From positions 1-39,432 of the forward strand of contig CALBIN010000144.1 in the NCBI GenBank assembly GCA_937893275.1: 39,432 nucleotides of DNA, written 5' to 3'. The position numbers and the translations under genes are program-made. Of the stretch, positions 3,375 through 31,257 are shown piece by piece. Under the pieces are notes generated by a model that ran no database searches, was not told the origin of the DNA, and was given only the letters and a program-made list of their open reading frames with translations. The DNA comes from an uncultured Opitutia bacterium. Its GTDB lineage: Bacteria; Verrucomicrobiota; Verrucomicrobiia; Opitutales; Seribacteraceae. Every line of letters starts with the position of its first letter. Position 1 is the first letter of the stretch.

Positions 3375-4730
3375 ATGCGTGAATATTTCATTCGACGATT
3401 TCTCTTGATCCCACCGACTTTGCTGGGAGTTACCCTGCTGGTTTTTACGATTACCCGCTTCGTGCCCGGTGGCCCCATGGAACGAGCCTTGCAGGAAGCC
3501 CAGAAGGCAACCGAGGGCGGTGGAGCAGGTAGCGGTCAGATCGGTGGAGGAATGAGCGAAGAGCAAGTCGAGGAACTCGAAGAGGAGTACGGTTTCGACA
3601 AACCGATCCTTCAGGCCTACCTCCAATGGCTTGGGGCATTGCCCAGAGAACGCAGGTTGAGCAAGTCGGAGTTTCGCCCATTGGGCAAAGACAAGGTCGG
3701 TGAGGATCTTGTAAGCGATCCGAACAAGGAAACCTTAGTACTGCTCAAGGGCAGTGGTCGGCAGGCGAAAATCATTCGTGACGGCAACGTAAGCGAAGTA
3801 ATTTCAGCGACCTACTTGGACAATAATAAATCGATTGCCGAGGATGGTTGGGAAACCCGTATCGAGACGATCGAGGACCGTCAGGAGCGATGGGTTCGTC
3901 GCTCCGGCGACGACATCTCGAAAGCTCCCCAGAACTATGATGACCGGGCAATCGTCTACAAGACACGTTTCGCCGGCCTGCTACAGGGCGACCTCGGGCG
4001 ATCGACCGATTTCGGTGACCCCGTATGGACATTGATCAAGGGTCGCATCCCGATTGCACTTTATTTCGGCATCCTTACGGCATTGATCACTTATGGCATT
4101 TGTTTGCCATTGGGGATTCTCAAGGCGATCAAACACCGTACCGCGATCGACAACCTAACCTCCATCTTCATTTTCGTAGGATATGCGATACCCGGCTTTG
4201 CCTTAGGCGCCGTGATGCTCGTCTACTTGGGAGCCAGAGGCGGATGGTTTCCGTTGTTCGGGCTGACCGACCCAAATTTCGACGGCATGAGCCTCGGAGC
4301 GCAATTCGTTGACTTGGCCCATCACACCGTCCTCCCTCTTCTTTGTTACGTAGTAGGCGGATTCGCTTGGTTGACCATGATGATGAAGAACAACTTGATG
4401 GACAATCTGGCAGCCGACTACGTGAGGACGGCGGTGGCCAAAGGGGTCTCTTTCCGCAGCGCGGTATTCAAGCATGCCTTTCGGAATTCCTTCATTCCAA
4501 TCGCCTCCACCTTGGGGCAACTGATCACTATCTTGGTCAGCGGCAGCATACTGATCGAGTCCGTTTTTGACATTCAGGGATTCGGCCTCCTGCAGTACCA
4601 GGCCTTGTTGGGAAGAGACCAAACCGTGATCATGGGCACCCTGACCATCGCGGCCTTCCTGCTCGTTCTTGGCAACATCCTGTCCGACATGATCGTAGCC
4701 ATGGTTGATCCACGGGTTAAATTCAACTGA
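3375..4730 (+). CDS. yejB: YejB-type ABC importer permease with an extra periplasmic segment
   Basis: Inner-membrane permease of the YejABEF class (peptide and microcin C uptake in enterobacteria). The first helix MREYFIRRFLLIPPTLLGVT is followed by RFVPGGPMERAL and YGFDKPILQAYLQWLGAL, which match the N-terminal layout of YejB. The core has GLLQGDLGRSTDF, four to five further helices, the EAA loop DYVRTAVAKGVSFRSAVFKH and the C-terminus MVDPRVKFN. Length is 451 residues against about 364 for E. coli YejB. The excess is a Gly-rich and acidic stretch (about residues 45-70) and a hydrophilic insert at about residues 91-200, both on the periplasmic side. It is the first gene of a five-gene operon; yejE follows after 7 bases. 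The family call is firm; the substrate is open. Confidence 0.9.
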   Translation: MREYFIRRFLLIPPTLLGVTLLVFTITRFVPGGPMERALQEAQKATEGGGAGSGQIGGGMSEEQVEELEEEYGFDKPILQAYLQWLGALPRERRLSKSEFRPLGKDKVGEDLVSDPNKETLVLLKGSGRQAKIIRDGNVSEVISATYLDNNKSIAEDGWETRIETIEDRQERWVRRSGDDISKAPQNYDDRAIVYKTRFAGLLQGDLGRSTDFGDPVWTLIKGRIPIALYFGILTALITYGICLPLGILKAIKHRTAIDNLTSIFIFVGYAIPGFALGAVMLVYLGARGGWFPLFGLTDPNFDGMSLGAQFVDLAHHTVLPLLCYVVGGFAWLTMMMKNNLMDNLAADYVRTAVAKGVSFRSAVFKHAFRNSFIPIASTLGQLITILVSGSILIESVFDIQGFGLLQYQALLGRDQTVIMGTLTIAAFLLVLGNILSDMIVAMVDPRVKFN

Positions 4731-4733
4731 GGT
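4728..4733 (+). promoter_or_regulatory. Ribosome binding site of yejE
   Basis: GAGGT overlaps the stop codon of yejB and sits 4 bases before the ATG at 4738. It decides the start: an in-frame upstream ATG at 4705, inside yejB, has no such site and adds 11 non-hydrophobic residues. Confidence 0.6.
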
Positions 4734-4737
4734 CGTT

Positions 4738-6339
4738 ATGCTAAGAATCTTTGGAAGAATCTTCTTGTTCGGGGCAATACTGGGTGCTCTCGGCGAGATG
4801 CTTTCCATTGAATTGCCGACGGTACGATTTCCCTTCACCTTGAGCCGTGAAATCGGATTCTTGCACGCCGATCTGGAAAGTGGAAATACATTTCCGTGGT
4901 TTGGCTGGTTGACGACTATCGTGTTTCTCGGGATAGGGGTCTTCATCGAACTTACCTTTGCCAAAGGTTTTCGCTTCACCCCAATTACCCTGCGTAGGAT
5001 CGAGCGTTTCAAATCGATCAAGCGCGGTTATTATTCACTCATCGTTATCTTTGCCTTGGCTGCGTTAGCCTCCTTGGATCATCTACTCGTGGGGAATGAG
5101 GCCTTGGCCGTGAAACACAACGGGAGTTGGTCTTTCCCCGCCTTCACTAGGGAGATTGAAAAAGGCCATGCCTTCGGAATCAAGGGCGACGAGGGGCAAG
5201 GTCCCCCGAGTTACCGAGATTTGCAGACTAGTTTCGCCGATGAGAGTGGAGACAATCAAGTGGTCATGCCCCTCCTGCCTTATGCGCCGACCGGTGATAC
5301 AATTGCCGCTGTTTCGATCAAGTTGGAAGTTGACCCAAACGGCTTGGCGATGGACGGTGGCAAACCCTTTTCAGGCTTGGCGGCCAGAATCTATGACTCA
5401 GCCCAGCCGGAACGCATGCATTTGCGGTTTCGCTTTCGAAACGGGCGTAAGGACGGGCCTGCGGACGGGTGGGATCGTAACGGAACTCGAGTCTATGGGG
5501 GAGCTTATATCGCCGGTGAATTGGTGAAAGATTCGGAATCATGGAACGGTGCGGGCGATCTCGCAACCTTCTTGGGTCAAGACTCTGGCGAGCTGCGTCA
5601 AGTGCACTTTCCTCCATCCCCTCCTACTTTTGGTTCGGAGCAAACGCACGCTCTAGGCACCAACTCTAAAGGTTACGACGTCCTGGCCTACCTCTTCGGC
5701 GGCTTGCAGGTAAACTTCAAGGCAGCCATCGTCTATATCCCGTTAGTTTATGCCTTGGGCATATCGATCGGGCTACTGATGGGCTTTTTCGGCGGAGCCT
5801 TCGATTTAATCGTCCAGCGCCTGATCGAAATCCTGTCCAACATCCCCTTTCTATTCGTCGTTATGATTGCCAGTACGGCCATCCCGGAGCGGCTTAAGGA
5901 AACCGCAGGGCTATGGATTATCATAGGTATACTTTTACTATTCGGATGGATGGGCATGACCTACCTGATGCGAACGGCGGCCCTCAAGGAAAAGGCCAGA
6001 GACTACATCGCGGCCAGTCGGGTAATCGGAGCCTCCACCCCTCGAATTCTCTTTCGCCATTTGTTACCCAACTCGGTCGCCATCATCGTGACCTTGGTTC
6101 CGTTCTCCGTTTCCAGCCTCATACTCGCCTTGACCTCGCTCGACTACCTAGGTTTCGGGTTGCCTGCAAAATACGCTACTTGGGGTCAGTTACTTCGCGA
6201 TGGCCTGGACAATTTATCGTCCCCGTGGTTGGTCACCTCGTCTTTCATGGTACTGGTCGGGTTGCTCATCCTGATCACCTTCGTCGGCGAGGCCGTTCGA
6301 GAGGCCTTCGACCCGAAGAAATTCAGCTACTATCGTTGA
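4738..6339 (+). CDS. yejE: YejE-type ABC importer permease with N-terminal and periplasmic extensions
   Basis: Second permease of the Yej-type importer, 533 residues against about 341 in E. coli. Residues from about 85 on match YejE: RRIERFKSIKRGYYSL, a helix, then ALAVKHNGSWSFPAF, a YejE-specific signature. The C-terminal half has HALGTNSKGYDVLAYLFGG, the EAA loop DYIAASRVIGASTPRILFRH, LTSLDYLGFGLP and FVGEAVREAFDPKKF. Two features exceed the family: about 80 extra N-terminal residues with two predicted helices, and an extra block of about 100 hydrophilic residues (roughly 190-290) between the first core helix and the TNSKGYDVLA motif. The start follows a GAGGT site. The gene is followed by the binding-protein gene after a single base. 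Confidence 0.9.
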   Translation: MLRIFGRIFLFGAILGALGEMLSIELPTVRFPFTLSREIGFLHADLESGNTFPWFGWLTTIVFLGIGVFIELTFAKGFRFTPITLRRIERFKSIKRGYYSLIVIFALAALASLDHLLVGNEALAVKHNGSWSFPAFTREIEKGHAFGIKGDEGQGPPSYRDLQTSFADESGDNQVVMPLLPYAPTGDTIAAVSIKLEVDPNGLAMDGGKPFSGLAARIYDSAQPERMHLRFRFRNGRKDGPADGWDRNGTRVYGGAYIAGELVKDSESWNGAGDLATFLGQDSGELRQVHFPPSPPTFGSEQTHALGTNSKGYDVLAYLFGGLQVNFKAAIVYIPLVYALGISIGLLMGFFGGAFDLIVQRLIEILSNIPFLFVVMIASTAIPERLKETAGLWIIIGILLLFGWMGMTYLMRTAALKEKARDYIAASRVIGASTPRILFRHLLPNSVAIIVTLVPFSVSSLILALTSLDYLGFGLPAKYATWGQLLRDGLDNLSSPWLVTSSFMVLVGLLILITFVGEAVREAFDPKKFSYYR

Positions 6340-6340
6340 T

Positions 6341-8452
6341 ATGATGAAAGTTTGCTACGTACTCTCGGCTTGTTTTCTCTCCTTGTTCTTCCTTGGAGGA
6401 TGCGAACGGGTTGACGAGGGTCTTTCGACGGAGGCGAATTTCGAAGAATGGTACCCCCAGTATAATCGCTACATCCGCAATTGGTTGACCAAGAAAGTCG
6501 AGGAGATTGAAATCGAGATGGAGAAACTCAATGCCGAGCTTGCAGATGCCGACGACGATGAAGGGAAGAAAAAGATTCAGGAAGTGCTTCTCGAAAAGAA
6601 AAAGCTGCTCGAGCGCATGCAAAACCGCCAAGCGATGGGGGATTATTTCCAATTCAAGACGGTTGAGGATTTGCCGTCGGAACTAGTCTGGGAAAACGGT
6701 TTGAAACAACCTGAAATCGGTGATCCCAAAGCTAAAAAAGGGGGAGCTTTCCGCTATTTCATATCCTCTTTTCCTCCAACCATTCGTCCATTTGGTCCAA
6801 ACTCGAACAACTCCTTCCGCGGGGAACTTTATGACAACATCGAGATCGACTTGGTAGAACTGCACCCCGAGACGGGTGAGGTGATTCCCGGGGTGGCCAA
6901 GGAGTGGGCTACAGGTACTGACGGCAAGACGGTATTCTTCCGTCTTGATCCCGACGCCAAATACAACGACGGCGTAGCGGTAAAGGCAATCGACTTTATG
7001 TGGTGGGTCTATCTTCGCGCATCGGACAACGTGGTCACACCTTGGTTCAAGCAATACCTGCGCGAGCAAATGGCACAGTTCACCTTGTTCGGTACAGACA
7101 TCATCGCGATATCACTTCCCGAACCCAAGCCGAAACTTGCCTACTTTGCCAGTCTTCCGCCATCACCGCCGCATTTCTACAAACAGTATGGGCCCGACTA
7201 CAAGGAACGCTACCAATGGCGCGTCCCGCCCACTACCGCCGCCTACACGGTAAAACCTGAAGACTTGGTCAAAGGCGTCTCCATCACCTTGAGTCGAACG
7301 GACAACTGGTGGGCCAAGGACAGGAAATTCTTTCGTTACAGGTACAATGCGGATCGAATTAGATATACAGTGGTCAGAGATCGTTCCAAGGCATGGGAAC
7401 TATTTCGGGCTGGAGAACTCGACTATTTCCCGATCACGCTTCCCGAATACTGGTACCAAAAATCCGAGATGCCACCAGTGTTCGATGGCTATGTCGAACG
7501 TTACACCTGGTACAACCAGTTTCCTCGCATCCCATGGTCGCTTTACTTGAACTCGGCCAAGCCGCCCTTGGACAACCACGACGTAAGACTTGGCATTTGC
7601 CATGCCTCCAACTGGCAAAAGGTCATCGACGTGATTTTTCGTGGAGATGCATCTCGCCTACCGGGCTGGACCAAAGGCTATGGTCGCTTCGACAACCCTG
7701 AGATCATGGCACGTCCTTTTTCCATTAGCAAAGCCCGCGAACATTTCGTAAAAGCGGGATACGTCAAGGAGGGGGACGATGGCATTTTGATGAAAGAAGA
7801 CGGACAGCGCCTGGAAGTGGCGCTTACATTCTCCAGAATTCCCGTGAGGGAAAAGATGATGGTTATTTTGAAAGAGGAGGCGAAGAAGTCCGGGTTGGAT
7901 TTCATAATGGACGGTCTCGACCACACCGTGGTCTACAAGAAAGAAATGCAAAAGAACCATCAAGCCGTCTTCTCGGCATGGGGCTTCCAACCGCCTTACC
8001 CCAGATATTACGAGTACTTTCACTCCAGCAACGCCTACGACGACAAAGGGAACTTAAAGCACAACACCAACAACGTGTTCTCCTTTTCCGACGAGCGCAT
8101 GGACCAGCTATCAGTAGCTTTTCGAAACGCTCGCACGGAGAATGAGCTGGAGAAATATGCACACGAGATGCAGCAAATCATTCACGACTCCGGAGTTTAC
8201 GTTCCGGGATACATGACCGAGTTCTCTCGCATAGGCTGTTGGCGCTGGGTACGTTGGCCTGATTCAGAGTACACCGAATTTTGTCCGCCTCGAACCTATG
8301 TTCCTTTCGAGAGTTACGTTTACTGGATAGACGAGGACATTAAACGCGAGACGGAGACAGCCAGGCGTTCGGGCAAGAAGTTTCCCGAGGTGCAGGCGGT
8401 CAAGCAAAGGTACCGCATCAAGACTGAAACGAAAGGCGATGCCGGTGAGTAA
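6341..8452 (+). CDS. yejA: YejA-like solute-binding lipoprotein with coiled-coil N-terminal segment
   Basis: Extracytoplasmic receptor for the Yej-type importer, 703 residues (YejA of E. coli is about 604). The start MMKVCYVLSACFLSL gives a signal peptide with lipobox LGGC, so it is a lipoprotein; a second in-frame ATG follows directly. Residues about 45-95 are a highly charged heptad-like stretch (KKVEEIEIEMEKLNAELADA), probably a coiled coil, absent from ordinary YejA. The family-5 binding domain then starts at GGAFRYFISSFPPTIRPFGP, with GVAKEWATGTDGKTVFFRLD, WWVYLRASDNV and KAREHFVKAGYVKEGDDG. It overlaps the next ATPase gene by 14 bases, so translation of the two is likely coupled. Confidence 0.9.
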   Translation: MMKVCYVLSACFLSLFFLGGCERVDEGLSTEANFEEWYPQYNRYIRNWLTKKVEEIEIEMEKLNAELADADDDEGKKKIQEVLLEKKKLLERMQNRQAMGDYFQFKTVEDLPSELVWENGLKQPEIGDPKAKKGGAFRYFISSFPPTIRPFGPNSNNSFRGELYDNIEIDLVELHPETGEVIPGVAKEWATGTDGKTVFFRLDPDAKYNDGVAVKAIDFMWWVYLRASDNVVTPWFKQYLREQMAQFTLFGTDIIAISLPEPKPKLAYFASLPPSPPHFYKQYGPDYKERYQWRVPPTTAAYTVKPEDLVKGVSITLSRTDNWWAKDRKFFRYRYNADRIRYTVVRDRSKAWELFRAGELDYFPITLPEYWYQKSEMPPVFDGYVERYTWYNQFPRIPWSLYLNSAKPPLDNHDVRLGICHASNWQKVIDVIFRGDASRLPGWTKGYGRFDNPEIMARPFSISKAREHFVKAGYVKEGDDGILMKEDGQRLEVALTFSRIPVREKMMVILKEEAKKSGLDFIMDGLDHTVVYKKEMQKNHQAVFSAWGFQPPYPRYYEYFHSSNAYDDKGNLKHNTNNVFSFSDERMDQLSVAFRNARTENELEKYAHEMQQIIHDSGVYVPGYMTEFSRIGCWRWVRWPDSEYTEFCPPRTYVPFESYVYWIDEDIKRETETARRSGKKFPEVQAVKQRYRIKTETKGDAGE

Positions 8453-9413
8453 ATTGCTGGAGATTGAGGGTCTGGAGTCAGGCTTTGATACCGAGGGTGG
8501 CCTTGTCCGAGCGGTAGACGGCGTATCCTTCGAACTGGAAAAGGGTCGAACACTCGGAATCGTTGGCGAGTCGGGTTGCGGGAAGACGGTTTCCGCGATG
8601 TCGATTGTCGACCTGCTGCCAAAGCCCGCCGGACGCGTCTTGGGCGGCAGAATAAGCTTCAAGGGACAGGAGCTGCGAGATGCCGATCCCGAAGTAATGT
8701 ACAAGACCCGAGGAAATGAAATCGGGGTAATCTTCCAAGAACCGATGACCGCGCTAAACCCCGTCCAACGGGTCGGCAAGCAGATCACCGAGGCCTTGCT
8801 GCTTCACAAAGACGTCAGCAAGCGAGAGGCGCTTCAGCATGCGGTCGAATTACTGGATGCCGTCGGCATTCCTTCCCCGGAAAGACGGATATCCGACCAC
8901 CCGCATGAACTTTCGGGAGGAATGAGGCAAAGGGTGATGATTGCCATCGCCTTGTGCTGCGACCCCGACCTACTTATAGCCGACGAACCGACCACGGCTC
9001 TCGACGTCACCGTACAGGCCCAGATTCTCGACCTGATGTCGAAGATGCAGAAAGAACGCGGCATGGCTACTTTGCTTATAACGCATGACCTCGGAGTGAT
9101 CGCCGAACAGTGCGACGAGGTGGTCGTGATGTACGCCGGACGCATCGTGGAACGAGCCCCCGTGAAAGAACTTTTTGCCAAACCGAAACATGCCTACACC
9201 AAGGGATTGCTGGCTTCGATACCACGATTGACAAACGAGCGAAAAACCGAGCTGCGGACCATTCCCGGACAAGTTGCCTCCATTCAGGAATTCGTCTCCG
9301 GGTGCCGTTTCTGTCAACGCATGGAACGCGGAGGAGATACCTTGAACACTCGCCCCCGATACGAGGAAGTGGAGCCGGGGCGCTTTCTTGAGACCTGTCC
9401 CGCATGCACTTGA
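8439..9413 (+). CDS. oppD: Peptide importer ATPase, OppD/DppD type, with Cys-rich C-terminus
   Basis: Cytoplasmic nucleotide-binding subunit, 324 residues. Walker A is GESGCGKT (about 42-49), the Q loop is FQEPMTALNP, the signature is LSGGMRQRVMIAIAL and Walker B is LLIADEPTTALD, with the H loop ITHDLGV. The C-terminal extension typical of peptide ATPases holds two CxxC pairs, Cys289/Cys292 and Cys320/Cys323, the last two residues from the end. Extra cysteines in this extension bind a [4Fe-4S] cluster in at least one DppD; here the pattern looks more like a four-Cys metal knuckle. In E. coli the Yej ATPase is one fused protein; here two separate ATPases serve the operon. The ATG lies inside the end of yejA. 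Confidence 0.93.
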   Translation: MPVSKLLEIEGLESGFDTEGGLVRAVDGVSFELEKGRTLGIVGESGCGKTVSAMSIVDLLPKPAGRVLGGRISFKGQELRDADPEVMYKTRGNEIGVIFQEPMTALNPVQRVGKQITEALLLHKDVSKREALQHAVELLDAVGIPSPERRISDHPHELSGGMRQRVMIAIALCCDPDLLIADEPTTALDVTVQAQILDLMSKMQKERGMATLLITHDLGVIAEQCDEVVVMYAGRIVERAPVKELFAKPKHAYTKGLLASIPRLTNERKTELRTIPGQVASIQEFVSGCRFCQRMERGGDTLNTRPRYEEVEPGRFLETCPACT

Positions 9414-9419
9414 ACAGCC

Positions 9420-10412
9420 ATGACTGAACCTAGCGAAGACGGCGACATCCTGTCTGTGGAGAGCCTAAAGATGCACTTCCCTCTTCGGGGAGGCGTTCTC
9501 TATCGGCAGACTGGTTCGGTAAAAGCGGTCGATGGCGTAAGTTTATCCATCGGCAAAGGGGAAACCTTAGGCTTGGTTGGGGAATCGGGTTGCGGAAAAT
9601 CCACCTTGGGCAAATGCATCGTACGATTGTTGAACGCCACGGCAGGTCGGGTGGTTATCAAGGGACGAGACGTAACCGAGTTGTCCCAATCTCAATTGCG
9701 ACCCTTGCGGCAGGACTTTCAGATGGTCTTTCAGGATCCGGCCGAATCCCTCGACGCCCGCATGTCCGTAGGCGAACTGATCGCAGAACCTATGGTCATC
9801 CAGAAACTCGGAACACGAGAAACACGCAAAAAGAGAGTGGATGAACTATTGGAACTGGTAGCAATGCCGGCATCTGCCGCAAGCAAGTTCACCTTCGAGT
9901 TTTCCGGCGGGCAACGCCAACGAATAGGCATCGCTCGATCTTTGGCCGTTAATCCCGATCTTCTGATACTTGACGAACCGGTTTCCGCTCTCGACGTCTC
10001 CGTCCAGAGCCAGATCTTGAATCTCCTTATGGATCTGCAACGCGAATTGGGTCTATCTTATCTCTTCATTTCCCACGATCTTGCCGTCGTGAAACATGTC
10101 TCCGACCGCATCGCCGTTATGTATCTGGGAAAAATCGTTGAACTGGCCGCTGCGGAGGAACTTTATTCTAATCCGCGTCACGCTTACACCAAGGCTCTAA
10201 TCTCTGCCATTCCTACTCCCGACCCTGCCGTCGAGCGCCAACGAAATCCTATAGCGGGCGATGTTCCTTCTCCCATCGATCCGCCACCGGGTTGTGCTTT
10301 TGGGCACCGCGTATCAGCACCCAACTATGAAAAGAGCATAGGCATGGACATTCACCTTAGGGAAATAAATTCCGGACACTTGGTCTCCAACTGCCCGTGC
10401 TGCGTCGAGTAA
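9420..10412 (+). CDS. oppF: Peptide importer ATPase, OppF/DppF type
   Basis: Second nucleotide-binding subunit, 330 residues, expected to pair with the OppD-type protein 6 bases upstream. Walker A is GESGCGKSTLGK, signature FSGGQRQRIGIARSL, Walker B LLILDEPVSALDVSVQSQIL, H loop ISHDLAVV. The N-terminal ESLKMHFPLRGGVLYRQTG is the usual OppF opening. The C-terminal extension keeps GCAFGHR (Cys292) and ends in a Cys-rich NCPCC (Cys325, Cys327, Cys328), echoing the cysteines of its partner. Last gene of the Yej-type operon; I do not see a clear terminator after it. Confidence 0.93.
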   Translation: MTEPSEDGDILSVESLKMHFPLRGGVLYRQTGSVKAVDGVSLSIGKGETLGLVGESGCGKSTLGKCIVRLLNATAGRVVIKGRDVTELSQSQLRPLRQDFQMVFQDPAESLDARMSVGELIAEPMVIQKLGTRETRKKRVDELLELVAMPASAASKFTFEFSGGQRQRIGIARSLAVNPDLLILDEPVSALDVSVQSQILNLLMDLQRELGLSYLFISHDLAVVKHVSDRIAVMYLGKIVELAAAEELYSNPRHAYTKALISAIPTPDPAVERQRNPIAGDVPSPIDPPPGCAFGHRVSAPNYEKSIGMDIHLREINSGHLVSNCPCCVE

Positions 10413-10599: not shown

Positions 10600-12399
10600 A
10601 TGGCAAGGAGTGTCTTCATCCTCGCAATGGTTGTATTCGGAAATGCATTTCATTCCGTCGGTATGGCCCAAAATGTGGAAGATATGCCCCTACGCCAAGT
10701 TATCTCAAGTGCCCAGTCTAAGATTGGGGAGGGAGATTTCGCAGGCGCGGCACCATATTTAGATGAGCTTGAAGTTCGTTTCGAAGACGAGAAAGATCCA
10801 GAGGTAGCCAAAATCCTTCAGCAATTTGGCTTTGTCAGAGGGATCGGATATTTACAAAGTTTTGCAAAGACTTCCGACCAAGGTTTCTTAGGTAAAGCTG
10901 CTGCCGCTTTTGCTTTCTTTGCGGAAAAATTCCCTGATGACCCAAAAGCCGTAATGGCCATGCAAAAGAGGACGATGTGCCTACGAGCTCTCAACGAGTT
11001 CAAGGAAGCAGCCAAAGTCATTGAAATTTTGCTCGACCCCAAAAAGCCCTACAGAAAGCAAATCTTAAAGCGTAGCGAACTTATGAACCTTTATTTTGGT
11101 AGAGCACAGTGCTACCACATTGAACAAGCGTGGGTTCAGGGTGAACCTGCGTTCAGGGAGTTACTAGTGGTTGCAGACAAAGCGAAGGACGAAGATCGGG
11201 CTGCCTACGCCGTATCCTGCTTGGTCGAAATGTTTGTGGTGAATAAGCGCATAGACGATGTGTTCCCCCTCCTGCCTAGACTTGCCGGAGATACCCCGGC
11301 CAGATACGACATTCGACTCAATGTCAATCTGATGACGGGAGCCGAACAACTAAAGACGGCGGGTCGTCACTTGGAAGCTTCTCTGTTTTTTGCCCTCACG
11401 ATGACCACCGAGGAAATAAAGAACTATTACGAAGAAAGGCTTAAACAATTAAAGACCGAGTTGACCACGCTTGAAAACTTCATGTCCCTGCGGGGAAAAG
11501 CTCTTCCACGTCGTCGAGCGGAGATTCTCAAGGATAGAATAAATGAATTGGCCATGAAGGTAACCAATGCCCAAGGCAGGCTAGACCAAATAGCTAAAAT
11601 ACCCTCCTTCACCACAACCTTAAGATGGCGGAAGGCTGAGAATTACAAGGAGACAAAACGGGACTGGGAAGCTTTTTGGGCCTTCTACTGGCTCTACAAG
11701 GACTTTCCCAAACACGATAACGTAGAAAACTTTCTTTATGCAGCCTTTGCTTCCGCAAATGGTGTAAAGCATAGAGAAAAGTCCATCGAGCTAGGAGAAG
11801 AGTACTTGGCCAATACGGATTGGAAAAGCTTTCGAGCCGATGTGACGTTTATTATGGCCAATGCCTACCAGTCCGAAGCGAAAGTACAGGACGCACTCGC
11901 AAAGTCTCTCGATGGCGCCATTAGCACGAAAGACCGGGAGGCGGGGTCGGTGGCAAAGACCAAGGCTGAAGAGTATTACAACCGTTTTTTCGAGCTTTGC
12001 GATCGATTTCTCGAGGTCATGCCTGAACACGAATATTCTCGAGACTTCATCAATATGATGGGTTCCGTTTACTTCGGCAGAAAAAGGTTTGACGACTTGC
12101 TGGTAAAGTTCGCGGGCGTTGAAAACGGTGTCATGGATAGATCCAAGGGGTACGTTAACAACGAGAAGTTCAACAAAAGCCCAGCCATGCCCCCTGCTCA
12201 CTATTTCAGTGGTCTGGCCCTTCTGGCTACGGGGAAATTCAACGAAGCAAAACCGCTTCTCGGCGCTTTGGTGGGAGTGAATGTGACAGGCCTGCCGGTC
12301 AAGGACCTTTCAGGCATTGACGGGCTTGGCGGCGAGAAAGAATTCGAGGAAAAACCATACGTGCCTGAAACTGACTCCAACCAGTCCGAAGACCTTTGA
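10600..12399 (+). CDS. Exported helical-repeat (TPR-like) protein with central coiled coil
   Basis: Function not known. 599 residues from the ATG that gives MARSVFILAMVVFGNAF, a clean signal peptide with a likely cut after SVGMAQ or one residue earlier, so the protein is periplasmic or outer-membrane associated. The mature part is rich in alpha-helical hairpins of TPR type, for example AAAAFAFFAEKFPDDPKAVM and FWAFYWLYKDFPKHDNVENF, both with the FP/D spacing seen in YbgF/BamD-like repeats. Around residues 275-340 lies a charged coiled-coil segment (YYEERLKQLKTELTTLENFM). It is the first gene of a co-directional cluster of three such proteins followed by exbB and two exbD genes, with the next gene starting one base after its stop. 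A role as scaffold or adaptor in an ExbBD-driven envelope process is inferred. Confidence 0.75.
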   Translation: MARSVFILAMVVFGNAFHSVGMAQNVEDMPLRQVISSAQSKIGEGDFAGAAPYLDELEVRFEDEKDPEVAKILQQFGFVRGIGYLQSFAKTSDQGFLGKAAAAFAFFAEKFPDDPKAVMAMQKRTMCLRALNEFKEAAKVIEILLDPKKPYRKQILKRSELMNLYFGRAQCYHIEQAWVQGEPAFRELLVVADKAKDEDRAAYAVSCLVEMFVVNKRIDDVFPLLPRLAGDTPARYDIRLNVNLMTGAEQLKTAGRHLEASLFFALTMTTEEIKNYYEERLKQLKTELTTLENFMSLRGKALPRRRAEILKDRINELAMKVTNAQGRLDQIAKIPSFTTTLRWRKAENYKETKRDWEAFWAFYWLYKDFPKHDNVENFLYAAFASANGVKHREKSIELGEEYLANTDWKSFRADVTFIMANAYQSEAKVQDALAKSLDGAISTKDREAGSVAKTKAEEYYNRFFELCDRFLEVMPEHEYSRDFINMMGSVYFGRKRFDDLLVKFAGVENGVMDRSKGYVNNEKFNKSPAMPPAHYFSGLALLATGKFNEAKPLLGALVGVNVTGLPVKDLSGIDGLGGEKEFEEKPYVPETDSNQSEDL

Positions 12400-12400
12400 G

Positions 12401-14566
12401 GTGAAGAGCTTCAACTACATTCCGATCTGCCTTACGCTAGCGGTCATATTATCCCTACAGGGGTGCGGAGGAGACGAGGAGCCATCGCTTCCCCCCAAAG
12501 AAGATAAGGCCAATTCCAAAGAAGATGTGCCCAAGGCTCCAAAAAAAGAAAAGCCTCCGGAACCGGAAGAAGAGCCGGAACCCGAACCCGTTCCAGACCC
12601 CAATGGGGTATATCTTCCAACTGATGAAGAATCCAGCGGCAAAACCGTTTACGCTGACGGCGATGGCTTTTACCTTTGGTTCAACGGTCTTGAATGGAGA
12701 ATTTCCGACAAAGTGGGAGGGGGTAAATCGGTGGCGTCAGGTAAAGCAGCCATTATGGACTCATGGACGAACGGGGGAAGAGTTCGCCATCATCCGTCCG
12801 AAGATTATGCAAAAGACGCGACTTTTAGATTGGCCGTCGCGTTTCAAGGGAGCGAAGATCATGTCAACGCCATCCGCCTGTTTAACCAATTCGTAAAAAA
12901 ATTCCCAAACGACGAGTTGGTTGCCGATGCGCATCTTAGCCTCGGAGATCTCTCAATCAGCGGTCTCAAGGGGGACGAAAAACCTAGTTATGAACAAATT
13001 TCAAATTCTCGGATGCATTATGGGAAGGTCCGGGAACTCACCCAAAAGGTAAACCTCATTCGTGATTCGTACTTCAACGAAGGTCAGCTAATAGAAAATG
13101 TCGCGGCAGATCCAGAAGGCTATGTTAATCAATACTTAACCTTCGATACAAATAAGAACGAAGAGCTTGAAAGCGTAGAATACGCAGCCACGGGGTTAGC
13201 CGACAAGTACCCCTTCTCTGAGGCCAATATAAACGGCGATAAAGTCGTAGATTGGGAAGAGCTGTACGAAGTCACCACTATTTCTCTTTATGCTTCGCTA
13301 GAAACCCTTTTTCGAGAATTCCTGGAGAAAATAGGGGATCAAGAGGCAGCAGGAGCCTCACAAGCCACCAAAAAAATAGGCATGGCTTGCGAGAAACAGG
13401 GGCGCCCGGCGGAAATGCTAAAGTTATACCATGCCGACATTAAGAAATTCGGGAATGACCCCGGAAGCATCGGCGTTGATGAAATCCTAAAAATCTATTC
13501 CGAAAAGTACGACCACTACGACAAACTATTCGGCAACACTTACAAACTCTTGACCATAATCAGAAATCCGGGTCAAGCCGTAGATTTTGCCTATAAGGAT
13601 CGCAAAGGGAGCGAATCCACGATTTCCGGAACGGTGGAAGAAATCCTCAAGGACCGACGCAAGTTGTTGCCTTGGTTAGGGTCTGAATTCAAGGGCATGG
13701 AGCAAGAAGTTTACGACAAAATGGTTCGTGCCCGTACGACCGTTTATTCTAATGGGAATACCAAAAAGGAATTTGATGGTTTGCGAAAGAAATATGAAAA
13801 ATTAGTGGCTAATTTTCCAAACGAACTTTCCCCGGCCCAAACATTCAAGGCTCTCTTCGACGAAGCAGAGTCGGCTGGGCAAACAGCCCTGTCCCTACGG
13901 ATGAGAGCCATGCTGGAAAAGGTGGGTGCCCCTGTATCCGGCACCTATGTCCCTAACCGGGGCGATTTCCCAAACGCAAGTCCCGGCGTACTTGTGTGGA
14001 TGGGCAAAAAGCTTCTTGCTCAAAACCAAACCGAGGATGCCATTGCAGCGATGGAACGCTTGGTTAATATGTATGGAGAAACAGGTGGTGAATTTCTTTT
14101 CGATGCTCACTACGTACTAGGGGAAGCCAGTGAGCGAGAACGCGATCACAAGGCCGCCGCCAACCACTTCGACCAAGCCTTGACCAACTCTTCTTGGCAC
14201 GAGGACGCGGGTTCAGCCAGAATCCGTATGGGAAGAGCTTATTTCGAAGTTGGAAAAACGGATAGAGACAAAAATTCTTTCGAACGCGCGGCTTCCGCTT
14301 TTGAACAAGTTCGTAATGACGCCGATATGGCTCTAGAACTCCGTGCCGAGTCCTCTTTTATGATGGGTGAATGTCTATTTGCTCAACGAGATGCAGGAGG
14401 TGCGGCTTACTATTATATGGATACGGCATTGAACTTCCCTGCAAGCATAACTTGGGCCGAAAAATCGTTTTTGCAAGCTATTCGATGTTTCGAGCAAGCG
14501 GGAAAGGGAAACGAAGTCAACAAAGTCGAAAAGCAGTATAATTCTTGGTCGGGTAAATATAAATGA
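12401..14566 (+). CDS. TPR-repeat lipoprotein with an embedded EF-hand pair
   Basis: 721 residues from the GTG start, chosen because it places a lipoprotein signal (FNYIPICLTLAVILSLQGC, Cys22) at the N-terminus; a TTG 84 bases upstream would bury it. After the Cys comes a charged, Pro/Glu-rich linker to about residue 68, which could span the periplasm or stand off a membrane. Helical repeats follow, such as AIRLFNQFVKKFPNDELVAD and AASAFEQVRNDADMALELRA. Residues 249-260 (DTNKNEELESVE) and 276-287 (NINGDKVVDWEE) fit the 12-residue EF-hand loop, each with acidic or Asn ligands at 1, 3, 5 and Glu at 12, so calcium binding is plausible. The stop overlaps the next start by ATGA, so the trio is translationally coupled. 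Function otherwise unknown. Confidence 0.75.
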   Translation: MKSFNYIPICLTLAVILSLQGCGGDEEPSLPPKEDKANSKEDVPKAPKKEKPPEPEEEPEPEPVPDPNGVYLPTDEESSGKTVYADGDGFYLWFNGLEWRISDKVGGGKSVASGKAAIMDSWTNGGRVRHHPSEDYAKDATFRLAVAFQGSEDHVNAIRLFNQFVKKFPNDELVADAHLSLGDLSISGLKGDEKPSYEQISNSRMHYGKVRELTQKVNLIRDSYFNEGQLIENVAADPEGYVNQYLTFDTNKNEELESVEYAATGLADKYPFSEANINGDKVVDWEELYEVTTISLYASLETLFREFLEKIGDQEAAGASQATKKIGMACEKQGRPAEMLKLYHADIKKFGNDPGSIGVDEILKIYSEKYDHYDKLFGNTYKLLTIIRNPGQAVDFAYKDRKGSESTISGTVEEILKDRRKLLPWLGSEFKGMEQEVYDKMVRARTTVYSNGNTKKEFDGLRKKYEKLVANFPNELSPAQTFKALFDEAESAGQTALSLRMRAMLEKVGAPVSGTYVPNRGDFPNASPGVLVWMGKKLLAQNQTEDAIAAMERLVNMYGETGGEFLFDAHYVLGEASERERDHKAAANHFDQALTNSSWHEDAGSARIRMGRAYFEVGKTDRDKNSFERAASAFEQVRNDADMALELRAESSFMMGECLFAQRDAGGAAYYYMDTALNFPASITWAEKSFLQAIRCFEQAGKGNEVNKVEKQYNSWSGKYK

Positions 14567-15795
14567 GCTTTTCCATTAACATTCTTCGGGCGTCACTAGT
14601 TCTTACAACATTAGGAACGAATGGCTTATCCGGGCAAGACTACTTCAAAACTTATGCCCCGAAACAGGGGTTGCCGGTTAAGGTTTACTATGTGAACAAC
14701 CCGAAACCGATGGAAACTCGGTTGTTAAGTGTAGACGATACCAAGGGCATACTTAAAACAACCCAATCGGAGTACAGCTTGAGGGAGTTGAAAACACGGA
14801 ATAACATCGATCGTTTTGTATACACCTTCCCCCCCCAGACTCTACAACAGTTAAAGTTTCTCTCGGACGAGCAGTACGACCCTCGCCTTCTGGATGCAAT
14901 TAGGCCCGTCATATACCAAATATTTCATTTCCACGAAATCAATCCGGAGTTCTTGCCCATTCACGACAATTGCCTAATATATGTTAGAGCTCTCATTGGC
15001 ATGGAGCAGTTCAATGAAGCGTTCACTCTACTTTATAAACTAAACCTTAAAAGACTGGATGATTTCGAATATCGGGAATTCTCGGATTCGGCTCTGGAAT
15101 TGGCAGGAAAGATGATAGCGGCTAATCCAAAGTCAGCCAATCATGTCAGGACTCTTTTAACCAAAATAAATATTCGAAATAATGGGGCCGACCACGAAGC
15201 CTACCTCAATCTTTGCGACTCCCTTCGGAGAAATAAACTGTTTCCGAATGCAATCGAAGCCTATGCCCGCTTGGGAGCAAACCTTCAAAACGCTTCAAAT
15301 AGTCCCCTCAAGGGAATTGTCGCTATTTGGCCAATCTATTGTCACCTGAAATTGTACGAGGCATATGCGCCCCACGCCGCCTCGAATCCTCAATACGCGA
15401 AAGCAGCCAGTCAATCGTTCAACACCGCCGCCCAAGGATTAAAGAAGCTCGAGGAGAATCCTCCCAAACGTCAAACCAATGAATACTCTCTATATAAGTT
15501 GTTGCGGGCTTTGCTGCGAATACAGTATGCAAAACGTTATGAAGCTCAAGGGAGCAAGGAGCAAGCTGCGGAATACTACAGGCAATCAGTGCTTGAAGTC
15601 ACCGAAGGCATAGTTATGGCGCGCGTGGGCTTGGATTGGTTGCCCGAATCTTTGCTCATGGCCGGAGGCGCCTATGAAAAACTGAATCTTAACGATGCAG
15701 CCCGCAACGTATACCGACAGGTAGAAATTTTCTATAAAGATTCAAATTGGGCGGCCGAAAGCAAGAAACGCATAGCTGCCTTGCCACCGTCTTGA
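14563..15795 (+). CDS. Exported helical-repeat protein, third of the TPR trio
   Basis: Function unknown; 410 residues. The N-terminus SINILRASLVLTTLGTNGLS is a signal peptide with a probable cut before GQDYF. Residues about 30-75 look like a small beta domain (GLPVKVYYVNNPKPMETRLL), the rest is helical with TPR-like pairs, for example AIEAYARLGANLQNA and AAEYYRQSVLEVTEGI, and a closing AARNVYRQVEIFYKDSNWAA. It starts inside the stop codon of the lipoprotein gene (ATGA) and is followed 61 bases later by exbB. The same order of exported repeat proteins and ExbB/ExbD suggests one assembly, but this is inference. Confidence 0.75.
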   Translation: MSFSINILRASLVLTTLGTNGLSGQDYFKTYAPKQGLPVKVYYVNNPKPMETRLLSVDDTKGILKTTQSEYSLRELKTRNNIDRFVYTFPPQTLQQLKFLSDEQYDPRLLDAIRPVIYQIFHFHEINPEFLPIHDNCLIYVRALIGMEQFNEAFTLLYKLNLKRLDDFEYREFSDSALELAGKMIAANPKSANHVRTLLTKINIRNNGADHEAYLNLCDSLRRNKLFPNAIEAYARLGANLQNASNSPLKGIVAIWPIYCHLKLYEAYAPHAASNPQYAKAASQSFNTAAQGLKKLEENPPKRQTNEYSLYKLLRALLRIQYAKRYEAQGSKEQAAEYYRQSVLEVTEGIVMARVGLDWLPESLLMAGGAYEKLNLNDAARNVYRQVEIFYKDSNWAAESKKRIAALPPS

Positions 15796-15856
15796 AATGT
15801 TTTACGTATTTGACGATAACGGCCCACCTATGACATCAGGTATTAACATTAAAATT

Positions 15857-16690
15857 ATGAAAATAGGAAGTTTACGACATTTACTATCAACGCTTGTCGC
15901 GTTCGCGGTTCTGTGCCCGGGCATGCTGGCAACAACGGCTCACGCCCAAACGAAGTCCTTCGGTCAGCAACTGATGGAGTCACTGGGCTGGACGTTCCTC
16001 ATCCCTTTTCTCCTCATGATTGTCGGAGGTATCACACTCATCATCTACAACGGCATAGCCATCAGAAAAAAGGCATTCGTGAAGGAAGAGGTCGTAGAGC
16101 CCATTCTTCAAGAAGTGAGCAGGCTTAACATCGATGGGGCGCGCGCACTTTGCGAACAGTACAAGCTTCCCGTAACTGCGGTACTGAAGGCAGGCCTTGA
16201 TAGAATCCAAGACGACGAACTGGATACCGATTCAATAGAAAAAGGATTGGAGGAAGCCTCGGCGATTGAATTGGCAAAACCTTATACCTGGATCAACATG
16301 TTGAATACCATAGGTTCGATCGCTCCTATGATTGGATTGCTCGGAACCGTTACTGGTATGATTGGAGCCTTCAACGTACTCACTGAATCCGGCATGGGTG
16401 GAGAATCCAGTCAGAAAATGGCAGGAAATATCGGTAGTGCCTTGTGGACCACTGCCTCCGGTTTGATTGTCGCCATACCTACCCTTGTCGCCTATTTTGT
16501 TTACAAAACAAAATTCGGTACCATTGCCGCTGAAGTAAATCGTGTAGCGGGCAACATGGTATTTACATTAGTTCGTGCAGCTCGCGGAGGATTCGATGAA
16601 GAAGGAGGTGAAGGAGAAGAATATTACGAAGAGGAGGAAGGCAACGCAATGGCTCCTCCTCCCCCTGGAATTCCTTCCCCGCCAGCTTAA
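15857..16690 (+). CDS. exbB: MotA/TolQ/ExbB proton channel protein with signal peptide and acidic-proline tail
   Basis: Inner-membrane proton channel subunit that with ExbD turns proton motive force into mechanical work. I start at the ATG giving MKIGSLRHLLSTLVAF, as this forms a signal peptide ending THAQ; two upstream in-frame ATGs (15797, 15830) add a hydrophilic leader without a ribosome site. The mature protein of about 247 residues has a first helix (LIPFLLMIVGGITLIIY), a cytoplasmic loop and the family core NTIGSIAPMIGLLGTVTGMI leading into GNIGSALWTTASGLIVAIPT. The last 40 residues are a low-complexity tail rich in Glu, then Pro. Two exbD genes follow at once. No tonB or tolA is in the window. 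Confidence 0.92.
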   Translation: MKIGSLRHLLSTLVAFAVLCPGMLATTAHAQTKSFGQQLMESLGWTFLIPFLLMIVGGITLIIYNGIAIRKKAFVKEEVVEPILQEVSRLNIDGARALCEQYKLPVTAVLKAGLDRIQDDELDTDSIEKGLEEASAIELAKPYTWINMLNTIGSIAPMIGLLGTVTGMIGAFNVLTESGMGGESSQKMAGNIGSALWTTASGLIVAIPTLVAYFVYKTKFGTIAAEVNRVAGNMVFTLVRAARGGFDEEGGEGEEYYEEEEGNAMAPPPPGIPSPPA

Positions 16691-16742
16691 GAATTTCCAA
16701 TTGTAGCTAAACACTAATTTCTAAAGTTAATCAGACTCCTTT

Positions 16743-17165
16743 ATGAAAGGGTTTCAGGCCGAAGAAAGCAACGATGCTCCTGATTTGACGCCAATGATCG
16801 ACGTCGTCTTCTTGCTGATCGTATTCTTCATGGTCGTTGCCCAGCAAATGTCCGAGCAATACGTAGAACTGGAAGAGATGGCTGTGGCTAGCCGATCTGC
16901 GGTGAAGGAGTCACCTCCACCGCGCACGATAATCACGATAGACGACACACCCGATGGACAAAAGTTCTACTGGGGAGAATCGGAAATCGATCTCAACCAA
17001 GTTGGTTTTTACGTCAGCAAACATCCCGAGTGGAAAGTTTTTTTAAGGGTTCATCCAAAAATCACCCACTCCTTGGTTCAAGACGTCTTGAAGGAAATAG
17101 GTAACGCTGGCCAAGCCGATATCATCTTTGGCACATGGCAGGTCGCAAACGGAGGAGGAGAGTAA
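16743..17165 (+). CDS. exbD: ExbD/TolR-family biopolymer transport protein (first of two)
   Basis: Single-helix partner of ExbB, 140 residues, normal for the family. The short cytoplasmic N-terminus leads into DLTPMIDVVFLLIVFFMVVA; Asp20 corresponds to the essential proton-carrying Asp of ExbD/TolR. The periplasmic part (residues 40-140) ends with VLKEIGNAGQADIIFGTW, the usual family pattern. It lies 52 bases after exbB and 4 bases before a second exbD. Two exbD paralogues after one exbB is a common arrangement in systems where the ExbD dimer may be a heterodimer. Confidence 0.92.
   Translation: MKGFQAEESNDAPDLTPMIDVVFLLIVFFMVVAQQMSEQYVELEEMAVASRSAVKESPPPRTIITIDDTPDGQKFYWGESEIDLNQVGFYVSKHPEWKVFLRVHPKITHSLVQDVLKEIGNAGQADIIFGTWQVANGGGE
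17151..17162 (+). promoter_or_regulatory. Ribosome binding site of the second exbD
   Basis: GGAGGAGGAGAG at the end of the first exbD lies 7-9 bases before the ATG at 17170. It is the strongest Shine-Dalgarno I see in the window, and it rejects an in-frame start at 17128 inside the upstream gene. Confidence 0.7.
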
Positions 17166-17169
17166 CGAT

Positions 17170-17646
17170 ATGGAATTCTTCAAGAAGCTCTTAAAGGAAG
17201 AGGATACTGTCGATCTTACTCCAATGATCGACGTAACATTCTTACTATTGATCTATTTCATGGTGACCACCATGTTGAAACAACCTGAAGCGGAACTCTC
17301 CATTCAACTCCCTGGCAAGCCTGCGAATAGCGATCTTAAGCCGATGCCCCTGCTTAGCGTCGAAATAGGCGATTATGGTCAAGTTATCTTAAATGGATCA
17401 GAAATTGAGCAAGCAACAACTTCAACGGGAGCTCCAAATTACGAAATGTTGGATTTGGTAGCCAATTTGAAGCAACAAAAGAGTATGCGGGATCAACTCA
17501 TTGCAAGTGGGGCCAGATCGAAGGAGGAAGCTGAATTAAAAGTCCAAATAGAATCTTCAGGCATTGCCGAGCATCAATCATCGATCAGCGTGTTAAATGC
17601 TTGTTCTACAGCAGGTATCGAAAAAATCACTTTTGCTTTCGAATAG
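17170..17646 (+). CDS. exbD: ExbD/TolR-family biopolymer transport protein (second of two)
   Basis: 158 residues. The helix VDLTPMIDVTFLLLIYFMVT carries the conserved proton-pathway Asp (Asp21). The periplasmic domain is longer than in the first ExbD by an Ala/Glu-rich helical stretch (about residues 95-130, including QQKSMRDQLIASGARSKEEA) before the closing VLNACSTAGIEKITFAFE, which matches the family end. It is likely translated together with the first exbD, which ends 4 bases upstream, and closes the TPR-ExbBD cluster. The sequences of the two ExbD proteins differ enough that they should not be interchangeable (inference). Confidence 0.9.
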   Translation: MEFFKKLLKEEDTVDLTPMIDVTFLLLIYFMVTTMLKQPEAELSIQLPGKPANSDLKPMPLLSVEIGDYGQVILNGSEIEQATTSTGAPNYEMLDLVANLKQQKSMRDQLIASGARSKEEAELKVQIESSGIAEHQSSISVLNACSTAGIEKITFAFE

Positions 17647-17719
17647 TACTTGTTTCCGAAGTTACGGAAGGCATCCCATTGTTCGTTTTTTTGTAACATC
17701 CCTCTTCCCCCCTTTTAAG

Positions 17720-18103
17720 ATGTCGATTGTAAAGAAATTCCTGCACACGCGGATGCGCGTTAACGATCTTGAACAAACGGTTGCCTTTTACCAAAAGGTT
17801 TTCGGGTTGGAAGTGACCAAGCGACACGAGTCCCCGCGCGGCTCAAAACTCGTTTTTCTCGCCGTACCGAATAGTGACGAGGAAATAGAAATCACATATT
17901 TTCCGGACTCAGGCTCGGTAGAAGTTCAAGAAGACCTTATGCACCTAGCGTTTGAGGTTGAAAACATGGACTCGTTCGGGGAACACATTCAATCGCTAGG
18001 AGTAGAATTCAGTGACGGCCCCACACAAAGTTCCACTGGATCGATTTTCGCTTTTGTAGATGCTCCTGAAGGTTACGAAATAGAAGTTATCCAGCGACCT
18101 TAG
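17720..18103 (+). CDS. gloA: Lactoylglutathione lyase (glyoxalase I), VOC superfamily
   Basis: Converts the hemithioacetal of methylglyoxal and glutathione (or another thiol) to the lactoyl thioester, a cytosolic detoxification step. 127 residues, close to E. coli GloA. The start MSIVKKFLHTRMRVNDLEQT aligns with the GloA N-terminus. The four metal ligands of bacterial glyoxalase I are all present: His9, Glu57 (EEIEITYF), His75 (LMHLAFEV) and Glu122 (GYEIEVIQ). FYQKVFGL and FVDAPEGYEIE are the usual flanking motifs. The longer open frame to 17597 overlaps exbD and is not used. It stands alone between exbD and the gluconokinase gene. Confidence 0.85.
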   Translation: MSIVKKFLHTRMRVNDLEQTVAFYQKVFGLEVTKRHESPRGSKLVFLAVPNSDEEIEITYFPDSGSVEVQEDLMHLAFEVENMDSFGEHIQSLGVEFSDGPTQSSTGSIFAFVDAPEGYEIEVIQRP

Positions 18104-20062: not shown

Positions 20063-23000
20063 TTATTCCTCGTGGATTTCCTCCCAAGCATACGCACTGT
20101 ATCGATAAAATCTTCGTGGAGATTTTGAGGATGTGTCATAGTAAATCCATTCACCAGCACCGGATTCTGATTGGTAGAGATTGGGATATACATAAGAACT
20201 AGTCCATAGCCAACCGATCGTAGGGTCGTAAAGCCAAATTGAGTTCGTATCGGTATTCTCATTTTCACGGTAAATCCAACCGTGGTGCTCGTGGAACAAC
20301 CAGCCGAAGTTAGTATCGTAGTAGTTGCCAAACCATGTGAAGTTTCGCCAACCGTTACCCAAATTCTCGGCGTAATCCCAGGTGTGTTCGGCATGGTCGA
20401 GTACAAAAATGCGAACACTTGCGGGAGAGGTAGTGATGTTGCCGTCGGACAAGGTAACGAAAATGTCATAAACGTTGTCGGCATCGGCATCTGTCGGCAA
20501 CTCGAAGTCTGGGGCAATCTTGAACGAAAGTAGGCCAGAAGTTGTATTCAAATCGAACAGTTGAAAATCTCCCTCTTCCTGAAGGCTGAAAGTGATTGTA
20601 TCGCCATCCTCGTCCTCGCCAATGAATGTTAGAATTGTTCGATTGTTCTCAATAACATTTTCCTGAACTATGCCTGCGGTAAGATTATTCAAGAGTCTGG
20701 GCGAAACATTTAGCTTAGAAAAAACTGCCGTTATGCTCCTATTATCGTTCATGGTCACAGAAATGTTTGCAAAACTGCTGTTTGCATCTTCCTTCCATTT
20801 CGTAAAAACATGTCCCGAGAAGGGTGTTGCCACGAGAGTGATGTTTGAGTCAACGGCATAAAGGAAACTTGCGCTCGAGGAGATCGACTGTCCATCGGAG
20901 GTCAAAACTTCGCCCAATCCCTCAATTGCTACAGTCAAAGTGTAATCGGTTGGAGGTTCAAAAGTATCGTCAAGGATAGAGATTAGTAAAGTGGCGGCAG
21001 AACTATCGATGCCATCGGTAATAGTGATCTCCAAACCGTAAGCGTGGTTTTTGCCGGAATCGTCGGGGTTTTCGAAGTCGGGAGGGATAAGAAAACTAAG
21101 AATCCCCGTGCTTGAATTTAGGTCGAAACGGGCAGAATCCGTTCCGGAAAGAGCAAAGGTTACAGTGTCACCGTCTTCGTCGGATGCGTTAAGGTCTATG
21201 GCGATTATGGCATTTTCGGTCAAAGTGATGGAGAAGCTGCTATCGGTCAGCGTGTGCGAAAACTCAGGAACGGCATTGAGCTTGCTGAAGGCAGCGACAA
21301 CAGTCTTGTTGCCGTCCATTGTAAGCGTAAGAGGATTGTCGGTGCCGTTGGCATCTCCCGTCCACCTGGAGAAGACATAGCTTGTGCCCGGCGTTGCCGT
21401 AATGGAAGCAGTGTCGTGAAGCTCGTAGGTACCCTCGCCCGTATCCGAGACTGCCCCATCTCCTTCCGTTTGCGTGACAAGATTGACATAAATGGGGGTG
21501 TTGGAACCCGAATCGTTAACAGTAACTCGAAGTGTAATGGAGTTGGAAGGAGCTTCAGAATCAGTGTAAAAAACGGTGAGGTTATATATATTGTCTGAAT
21601 TTGAGTCGGCGGGAGAAGCGAAGCTGGGGGGGGTTAGAAATCGAATAACTCCGGTATCAGAGCCGATTGCAAAAAGAGATTCGTCTCCGGAGTCACCAAG
21701 GGTGAAGGAGATGGCATCGCCGTCCACATCGGAAACCGAAAGGGTCACTACGGATACATTGCCTTCTGTGGAAGTGACCGCCAGTTCACCCGCCTCTATC
21801 GAATTAGTAAGAACCGGTGCAGAGTTTATACGATATTCGTAAGCACCTAAGTCCGGACCGGAACCATAACGGGTTTTGCCTAGAAGATCGGAAGAGAGAT
21901 AGCCACTAGCGGAGAGGGACGCTTGATCGATTGCAGGAGAAGATGCCTGCAAACCAAGATCATCATCTTCCGTGCCGACTAAATTATCTGCTCCATCTGG
22001 ATCAATGAAGAGAGGATCGTCCGAAAGATTTGCGGTACCGCTTGGCAACCCTTGGGACTGCGAGGATAAGAAAATAGAATTATTAATCCGAGCGGTTCCC
22101 GTGTTTTTGTAAATATCCGGGAACGTATTTGCCGAATTATTCCAAATAATGGAGTTTTCGATTTCAATTGTTTCACCCGGAAAAAGGAGTGTTACACCAC
22201 CTTCTTGAGCCACATTCCCATATAAAGAACAGTTCACAAAGCGAGTAGTGCCATCAGCTTGAAGAACACCGCTCCTATAGTTTGCTTTATTTCCAGAAAT
22301 GACACAGTTGACAAAAGACGTCGACGTGGTGCCGTTTGCCAGCATAGCCATACCCCCACTGGAATCAGAACTCCCATTCGCCTCGTTGCCGATAAACCGA
22401 CAATTCGTAAAAGACATGCTCGTCGTTCCCCAAGCCGAAACAGCACCTCCAGAATTACTATAATTCCCAAGAAAGAGGTTATTTGTTGCCTGTAAGTTCT
22501 GTCCTCCGGAAACATAAATTGCACCACCATAATCGTTGGCAGAATTGTATCGAAATTCGTTGGCACTGAGCACTGGAAGAGAAGTCGAGTCAATTGAGAT
22601 AGCACCTCCAGAATTCGACGCAGCTGCATTCAGGGTAAAAATACAGTTCGAAATCGTGGGTGAAGCATTATTTAAATGGATAGCACCACCGTAGTTGTTG
22701 GCATTGGTAATGTTGCCAGTAAAGGAGCAACGTAAAATCGTTGGCGACGCATTTTTAAAATAGATGCCCCCTCCCCCATTCCAAGAAAGGTTTTGATTGG
22801 ATGTGAAATTGGAATCTGAAAGTGAGCCCGTAGTTTCTTCCCAAAGTATTGCCCCGCCTTCATGAGTAGCCTTATTTGCAGTAAAAGAGTTAAAAGATCC
22901 TGCTATGGAACCCCCTTTGAGCCGGATTGCCCCGCCACCGTTCGAATTAAGACTTTGGTTGGTGGAAAAAGAACTAGAGTTGAGTGTTATGTTCGAATTT

Positions 23001-31220: not shown

Positions 31221-31257
31221 GATATTTTAGATAAGGGAGTAGAAAAATTATAAGGGC

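Follow-up and report, generated by a model that had tools for sequence, protein, structure and literature searches.

A TPR-linked ExbB-ExbD-ExbD gene cluster of Opitutales that lacks the linked vWA transducer of its relatives

Six co-directional genes of an uncultured Opitutia bacterium, coding for the TPR proteins T1, T2 and T3, an ExbB/TolQ-like motor subunit and two ExbD/TolR-like proteins (ExbD1 and ExbD2), probably specify a machine of the TolQR/ExbBD class that spans the envelope and is driven by the PMF; it would derive from a PVC system, have lost its transducer and have kept its TPR partners, reached either directly or through an unlinked transducer.

Results

Organization and setting of the six-gene cluster

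The window, that is, the whole stretch of 39,432 nt analysed here, is contig CALBIN010000144.1 of assembly GCA_937893275.1 (Opitutales, Seribacteraceae; family f1 hereafter). The genome is a draft of 3.56 Mb in 628 contigs, 84.6% complete, with nine MotA/ExbB matches. The family, placed in Opitutales (Verrucomicrobiota) by its named relatives, is known from MAGs and single-cell genomes, and the genome names of many members are marine. The cluster occupies positions 10600-17646 in the order T1-T2-T3-ExbB-ExbD1-ExbD2 (Table 1).

Table 1. Features of the TPR-ExbB-ExbD-ExbD cluster (window coordinates)
Feature	Position	Strand	Description
T1	10600..12399	+	ATG start; exported TPR protein, signal peptide ending ...GMAQ; weak Pfam TPR
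T2	12401..14566	+	GTG start; lipoprotein with TPR repeats; 1-base gap after T1
T2 lipoprotein signal	12401..12466	+	lipobox LSLQGC; Cys22 kept in T2 of the family; Gly at +2
T2 Pro/Glu/Lys-rich linker	12464..12604	+	47 residues; 28% Pro, 32% Asp+Glu; predicted disordered
T2 small beta domain	12668..12745	+	three-stranded (GFYLWFNGLEWRISD...); inserted where T1 and T2 part; modelled with low confidence
T2 EF-hand-like loop pair	13145..13261	+	DTNKNEELESVE ... NINGDKVVDWEE; insertion; by motif inspection, no Pfam match
T3	14563..15795	+	exported; beta domain at the N-terminus, followed by TPR-like helical repeats; ATGA overlap with T2
ExbB/TolQ-like motor subunit	15857..16690	+	ATG start; 61-base gap after T3
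ExbD1 (ExbD/TolR-like)	16743..17165	+	DLTPMIDV, Asp20; 52-base gap after ExbB
ExbD2 (ExbD/TolR-like)	17170..17646	+	DLTPMIDV; unlike ExbD1; 4-base gap after ExbD1
Glyoxalase/VOC protein	17597..18103	+	directly downstream of ExbD2

The ExbB start was taken at the ATG at 15857, because homologues align from about residue 17-20 of a longer ORF that begins at 15797. ExbB has a signal-peptide-like N-terminus (AHAQ) and an acidic, Pro-rich C-terminal tail. Pfam matches were found to MotA_ExbB (6.6e-28), to ExbD (6.4e-13 and 8e-19) and, for T2, to TPR families (8e-13), those of T1 and T3 being weak. The conserved Thr184, Thr218 and Thr219 of ExbB (numbering from 15797) are retained and the TM Asp is intact in both ExbD proteins; by these domains and residues, the window motor fits the ExbB/ExbD families. 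When the window was compared with another species of its genus, the six genes gave dN/dS values of 0.02-0.14, indicating that the set is under purifying selection. Neither tonB nor tolA nor a TonB receptor gene was seen beside the cluster among the ORFs and Pfam matches. A sequence-only reading of this DNA had described six genes in one direction with the tight joins of Table 1, a complete ExbB-ExbD-ExbD set with its motifs, a lipoprotein with a Pro/Glu linker, and no tonB, tolA or TonB receptor, and the present analysis agrees with it on each of these points.

Directly upstream of T1, at 3375-10412, lie oligopeptide-type ABC transporter genes (two permeases, a solute-binding protein and two ATPases), and the two ATPase genes adjoin the cluster in most other genomes of the window's family as well. 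The glyoxalase/VOC gene follows ExbD2 in f1, f18, f2 and f8, standing in f2 and f8 between ExbD2 and the vWA gene described below, and lies near the cluster in f13; it is probably a conserved bystander, without obvious role. A protein of 1790 aa, encoded at 20063-25435 of the window, combines a metallopeptidase domain of the M12 type (reprolysin-like) with InlB B-repeat (Flg_new_2) domains. At 29754-34248 there are a DUF1501 gene and a PSCyt1/PSCyt2/PSD1 gene, a pair typical of Planctomycetota and Verrucomicrobiota.

Conservation of the gene order

The six-gene order recurs in the loci examined of the window's family, wherever the contig is long enough, and the order T12-T3-ExbB-ExbD-ExbD, in which T12 is a single protein of about 1000 aa corresponding to T1 plus T2, was found in many other Verrucomicrobiota families and orders. 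Conservation across families and orders makes a functional linkage well supported, and chance adjacency of the TPR genes and the motor is ruled out by this synteny. The conserved unit proposed in the sequence-only reading was thus recovered in the family and well beyond it, and the scattering of TPR genes away from exbBD, which that reading had named as the opposite outcome, was not the case in the window's family.

The split TPR protein

On a profile built from the fused proteins, T1 covers model positions 10-496 and T2 positions 497-976. T1 stops exactly where T2 resumes on a protein that most other families and orders have in one piece. The pair makes a Rosetta-stone link, and T1 and T2 are by this collinearity the N- and C-terminal halves of one ancestral protein, T12, split at one point. 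Three exported TPR proteins had been counted earlier; three are present, but they represent two ancestral ones. The lipobox, the linker and the beta domain sit at the break between T1 and T2 and the EF-hand-like pair further into T2; all four are absent from the aligned fused relatives, including those of the sister family f18. The Gly at +2 suggests that T2 is anchored in the outer membrane.

The AlphaFold model of T2 (721 aa) consists of helical repeats (pLDDT 79), with residues 1-67 disordered, and that of T3 (410 aa; pLDDT 89) of an N-terminal beta domain followed by helical hairpins. Foldseek comparison of T2 and T3 with the PDB returned generic TPR folds only (BamD, PilF, OGT and others). 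T3 is about 740 aa long in f18 (L224:8571-10778, L052:9678-11930), a family that is also transducer-less, and its N-terminus there is Pro-rich, clearly so in L052.

The vWA transducer and its absence from the window's family

In most loci outside f1, ExbD2 (or, in some of them, the glyoxalase gene) is followed by a gene whose product has a conserved His in an N-terminal TM, then a Pro-rich linker and a vWA-like domain. Of the 40 cluster-linked copies that align at this TM, from Opitutales, Kiritimatiellales, Lentisphaerae and others, 39 have the His; one further copy was truncated. In E. coli, the corresponding His of TonB and TolA contacts TM1 of ExbB and TolQ (PMC12215075). No solved relative of the vWA profile was found by sequence.

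None of the window-family loci examined has this gene. Profile search of 41 window-family genomes detected no linked vWA protein, only unlinked ones, and those examined are without the motor-docking His; several genomes of 91-96% completeness gave no vWA match at all. When 177 Opitutales genomes were tabulated by hand (ExbB at E<1e-39 plus two contig-edge matches; strong vWA match at E<1e-70), motor and transducer occurred together in 42, the motor only in 20, the transducer only in none, and neither in 115 (Fisher P = 1e-25, a descriptive value only, the species not being independent). The motor-only genomes belong to f1 (15), to f18 (3) and to one genus of f24 (2). In the ExbB tree, which shows a long stem branch, f1 and f18 form one clade and f24 another, both inside transducer-bearing lineages, indicating two independent losses of the transducer. 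In the f24 genus the transducer is lost and T12 is unsplit; split and loss are therefore not causally tied, and the T2 linker is no proven substitute for the transducer.

A different arrangement was found in six genomes of family f16 (L225, L267-L271), in which T12-T3-vWA stay together, away from ExbB-ExbD-ExbD, and Gln replaces the motor-docking His of the vWA protein in 6/6 genomes examined. Taken together with the motor-only lineages, this family indicates that T12, T3 and the transducer form a cohesive module, and that T12, T3 and the motor can persist without the transducer.

Several genera of the window's family carry an orphan TM-vWA protein without the His (L100:6819-7940, L102-L104), encoded beside DUF1501/PSCyt-type genes and resembling the transducer in the linker and the start of the vWA domain. 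The copy of the window genome (C423) was rejected as a relocated transducer, being without the His and beside such genes; the orphan was also not found in most genomes of genus g3 or in two further genomes (G045 and G097). Among conserved residues of ExbB TM1, W66, M68 and S75 are lost in f1 and f18, and L71 in f1. As proof of lost docking these changes are suggestive only, since the stem is long and other conserved columns changed too, and the E. coli contact site (Ser34/Trp38) is not confidently mappable onto the window ExbB.

Other Ton and Tol motors in the same genomes

Genomes of the window's family contain a separate TonB operon, ExbB-ExbD-ExbD-TonB-TPR, with a TPR protein of about 455 aa (L228-L240). 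A tonB co-conserved with the window motor, the other outcome named beforehand, is thereby ruled out, as TonB has its own ExbB-ExbD-ExbD set elsewhere. The TM of this TonB is without an obvious His. The same genomes also encode a separate TolQ; TolA neighbours TolQ in other Opitutales and has moved away in most f1 genera, where a TolA-like protein, whose TM (SAAFHIVGLL) contains a His, is encoded at a locus away from its motor. This protein was ruled out as the missing dedicated transducer, since other families have it as the TolA of TolQR.

In the window genome, ExbB genes commonly have genes for TPR proteins as neighbours. A 1041-aa TPR-like protein is encoded with an ExbB at one locus (L070, C537); another (L072, C191) holds ExbB and ExbD together with a TPR-like fragment and genes for two large TM proteins. 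A third locus (L074, C378) holds a gene for an 867-aa protein, ExbB and genes for small proteins, ahead of a tuf gene.

Discussion

Proposed mode of action

Motors of the ExbBD and TolQR kind have a 5:2 stoichiometry and run on the PMF; they are thought to act by way of a transducer that is anchored by a TM and docked by a conserved His. By analogy in stoichiometry, an ExbB pentamer would surround the ExbD1-ExbD2 pair in the inner membrane, T1 and T3 would serve as periplasmic TPR scaffolds, and T2 would be a TPR lipoprotein that sits in the outer membrane and has a flexible linker. In the putative ancestor, TPR(T12)-T3-TolQ-TolR-TolR-vWA, an inner-membrane vWA protein with the motor-docking His would pass force to the outer membrane. 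In the window lineage, the transducer was lost and T12 was split and given a lipid anchor and a linker; the motor would most likely still drive the same TPR partners, making contact through the ExbD periplasmic domains or by way of an unlinked transducer. Envelope integrity and the handling of surface proteins or polymers are candidates for the powered process.

The more specific proposal, a motor working without any TonB-, TolA- or vWA-type transducer, in which the ExbD heterodimer drives outer-membrane TPR proteins directly and the T2 linker spans the periplasm, is tentative, and we think it conceivable rather than probable. Linkers are also found in ordinary outer-membrane lipoproteins, so that the one in T2 may have no part in force transfer. 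A transducer that has diverged or is encoded elsewhere may exist, the candidates being TolA and TonB in the genome and the orphan TM-vWA protein without the His in some f1 genera.

Supply of the transducer in trans, by which the motor would drive the TPR proteins through the TolA, TonB or orphan vWA protein of the genome and would be of the ordinary Ton/Tol type, with its transducer moved elsewhere, seems unlikely. The TonB and TolA of E. coli do cross-talk with both motors (PMC12215075), and f1 genomes encode TonB as well as the TolA-like protein whose TM bears the His; however, the neighbourhood of the latter with TolQ in other Opitutales assigns it to TolQR, TonB sits in an operon of its own, and the orphan vWA protein is without the His and was not found in most g3 genomes or in G045 and G097. 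It is unlikely, too, that a dedicated replacement has gone unrecognised in the window's family, having a new C-terminal fold and a gene elsewhere. The incompleteness of the window genome, the restriction of the vWA profile to vWA-type transducers and the long ExbB stem, as after a change of partner, would fit such a protein, but the loci of the genomes examined showed no conserved new gene for a TM with a Pro-rich linker. That the TPR genes and the motor merely share a transcript, or that the system is a decaying relic, is very improbable: the lost transducer and the frequency of TPR proteins beside ExbB genes in this genome would suit it, but conservation across orders, fusion or splitting in register, the low dN/dS and the intact ExbB Thr and ExbD Asp largely refute it.

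With the machine read as a derived TolQR/ExbBD-class device that kept its TPR partners, the locus offers a natural experiment, in which motor and partners outlast at least two independent transducer losses and the TPR protein was rebuilt in one lineage. Whether the transducer is needed, or whether ExbD/TolR can itself pull on partners, thus becomes testable.

Comparison with known systems

The cluster shares a TolQ/TolR-class motor with Tol-Pal (TolQRA, TolB, Pal, CpoB), and its TPR proteins are weakly similar to CpoB/YbgF. It is not Tol-Pal, however, as a different TolQ and a TolA are present in the genome and the motor scores 73 bits against the NCBIfam TolQ cut-off of 221. Nor is it a TonB-ExbB-ExbD system, with TonB in its own operon and an NCBIfam ExbB score of 42 bits against a cut-off of 206. 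An Opitutales isolate paper lists ExbB/ExbD genes under alginate transport, with no TPR link (PMC13274419).

The Vibrio TonB2 system with TtpB2/TtpC2/TtpD2 (PMC6957404) likewise has a TPR protein, TtpD2, that belongs with an exbB/exbD operon and is needed for function. In contrast to the window cluster, it has TonB2, serves iron uptake and carries the TPR gene after tonB; the ExbB-ExbD-ExbD-TonB-TPR operon of the window's family is closer to it. AglR-AglQ-AglS/Glt of Myxococcus xanthus (PMC3169522) also joins one TolQ-like and two TolR-like proteins to TPR partners with signal peptides, but its AglRQS genes form cluster M1, separate from the glt clusters, whereas the window motor is linked to its TPR genes. 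An FHA-domain protein like PglI/GltG was not seen at the window locus, and the window lineage is without evidence of gliding; the likeness, with Glt compared by description, lies in the motor subunits and the exported TPR partners (PMC3169522).

The nearest relative is a PVC cluster noted in Mol Biol Evol 2025 (Fig. 4a, PMC12204202), TPR-tolQ-tolR-tolR followed by a TM-vWA force transducer, with Tichowtungia as the example and a description from synteny and modelling only. Common to both are a TPR gene, one tolQ-like gene and two unlike tolR-like genes in the same order. The ExbB tree and the collinearity of T12 indicate common descent of the window motor and TPR proteins with transducer-bearing clusters, Tichowtungia being compared by its description only. 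Downstream of the motor, Kiritimatiellales, Lentisphaerae and other Opitutales relatives have the vWA protein with its His-bearing TM (SHLS-type), which was not encountered in the window or its family; the window cluster is therefore a derivative rather than a full member of the PVC system so described. It differs further in the split of T12 into T1 and the lipoprotein T2, which has gained a linker, a beta domain and an EF-hand-like insert, and in the second TPR gene, T3, which the available text of PMC12204202 does not mention for its cluster. "Undescribed", as the sequence-only reading had it, is thus only partly right, since it fails for the general PVC cluster; the transducer-less form with the split TPR lipoprotein, the T3 gene, the co-occurrence counts and the double loss were not found in the open-access papers searched. 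New here are the T12 split with its insertions, two independent losses of the transducer, and the presence elsewhere in the genome of Ton and Tol motors that have a TonB and a TolA of their own; and the vWA transducer family gains a defined partner set, T12 and T3, beyond the single TPR gene noted earlier for the PVC cluster.
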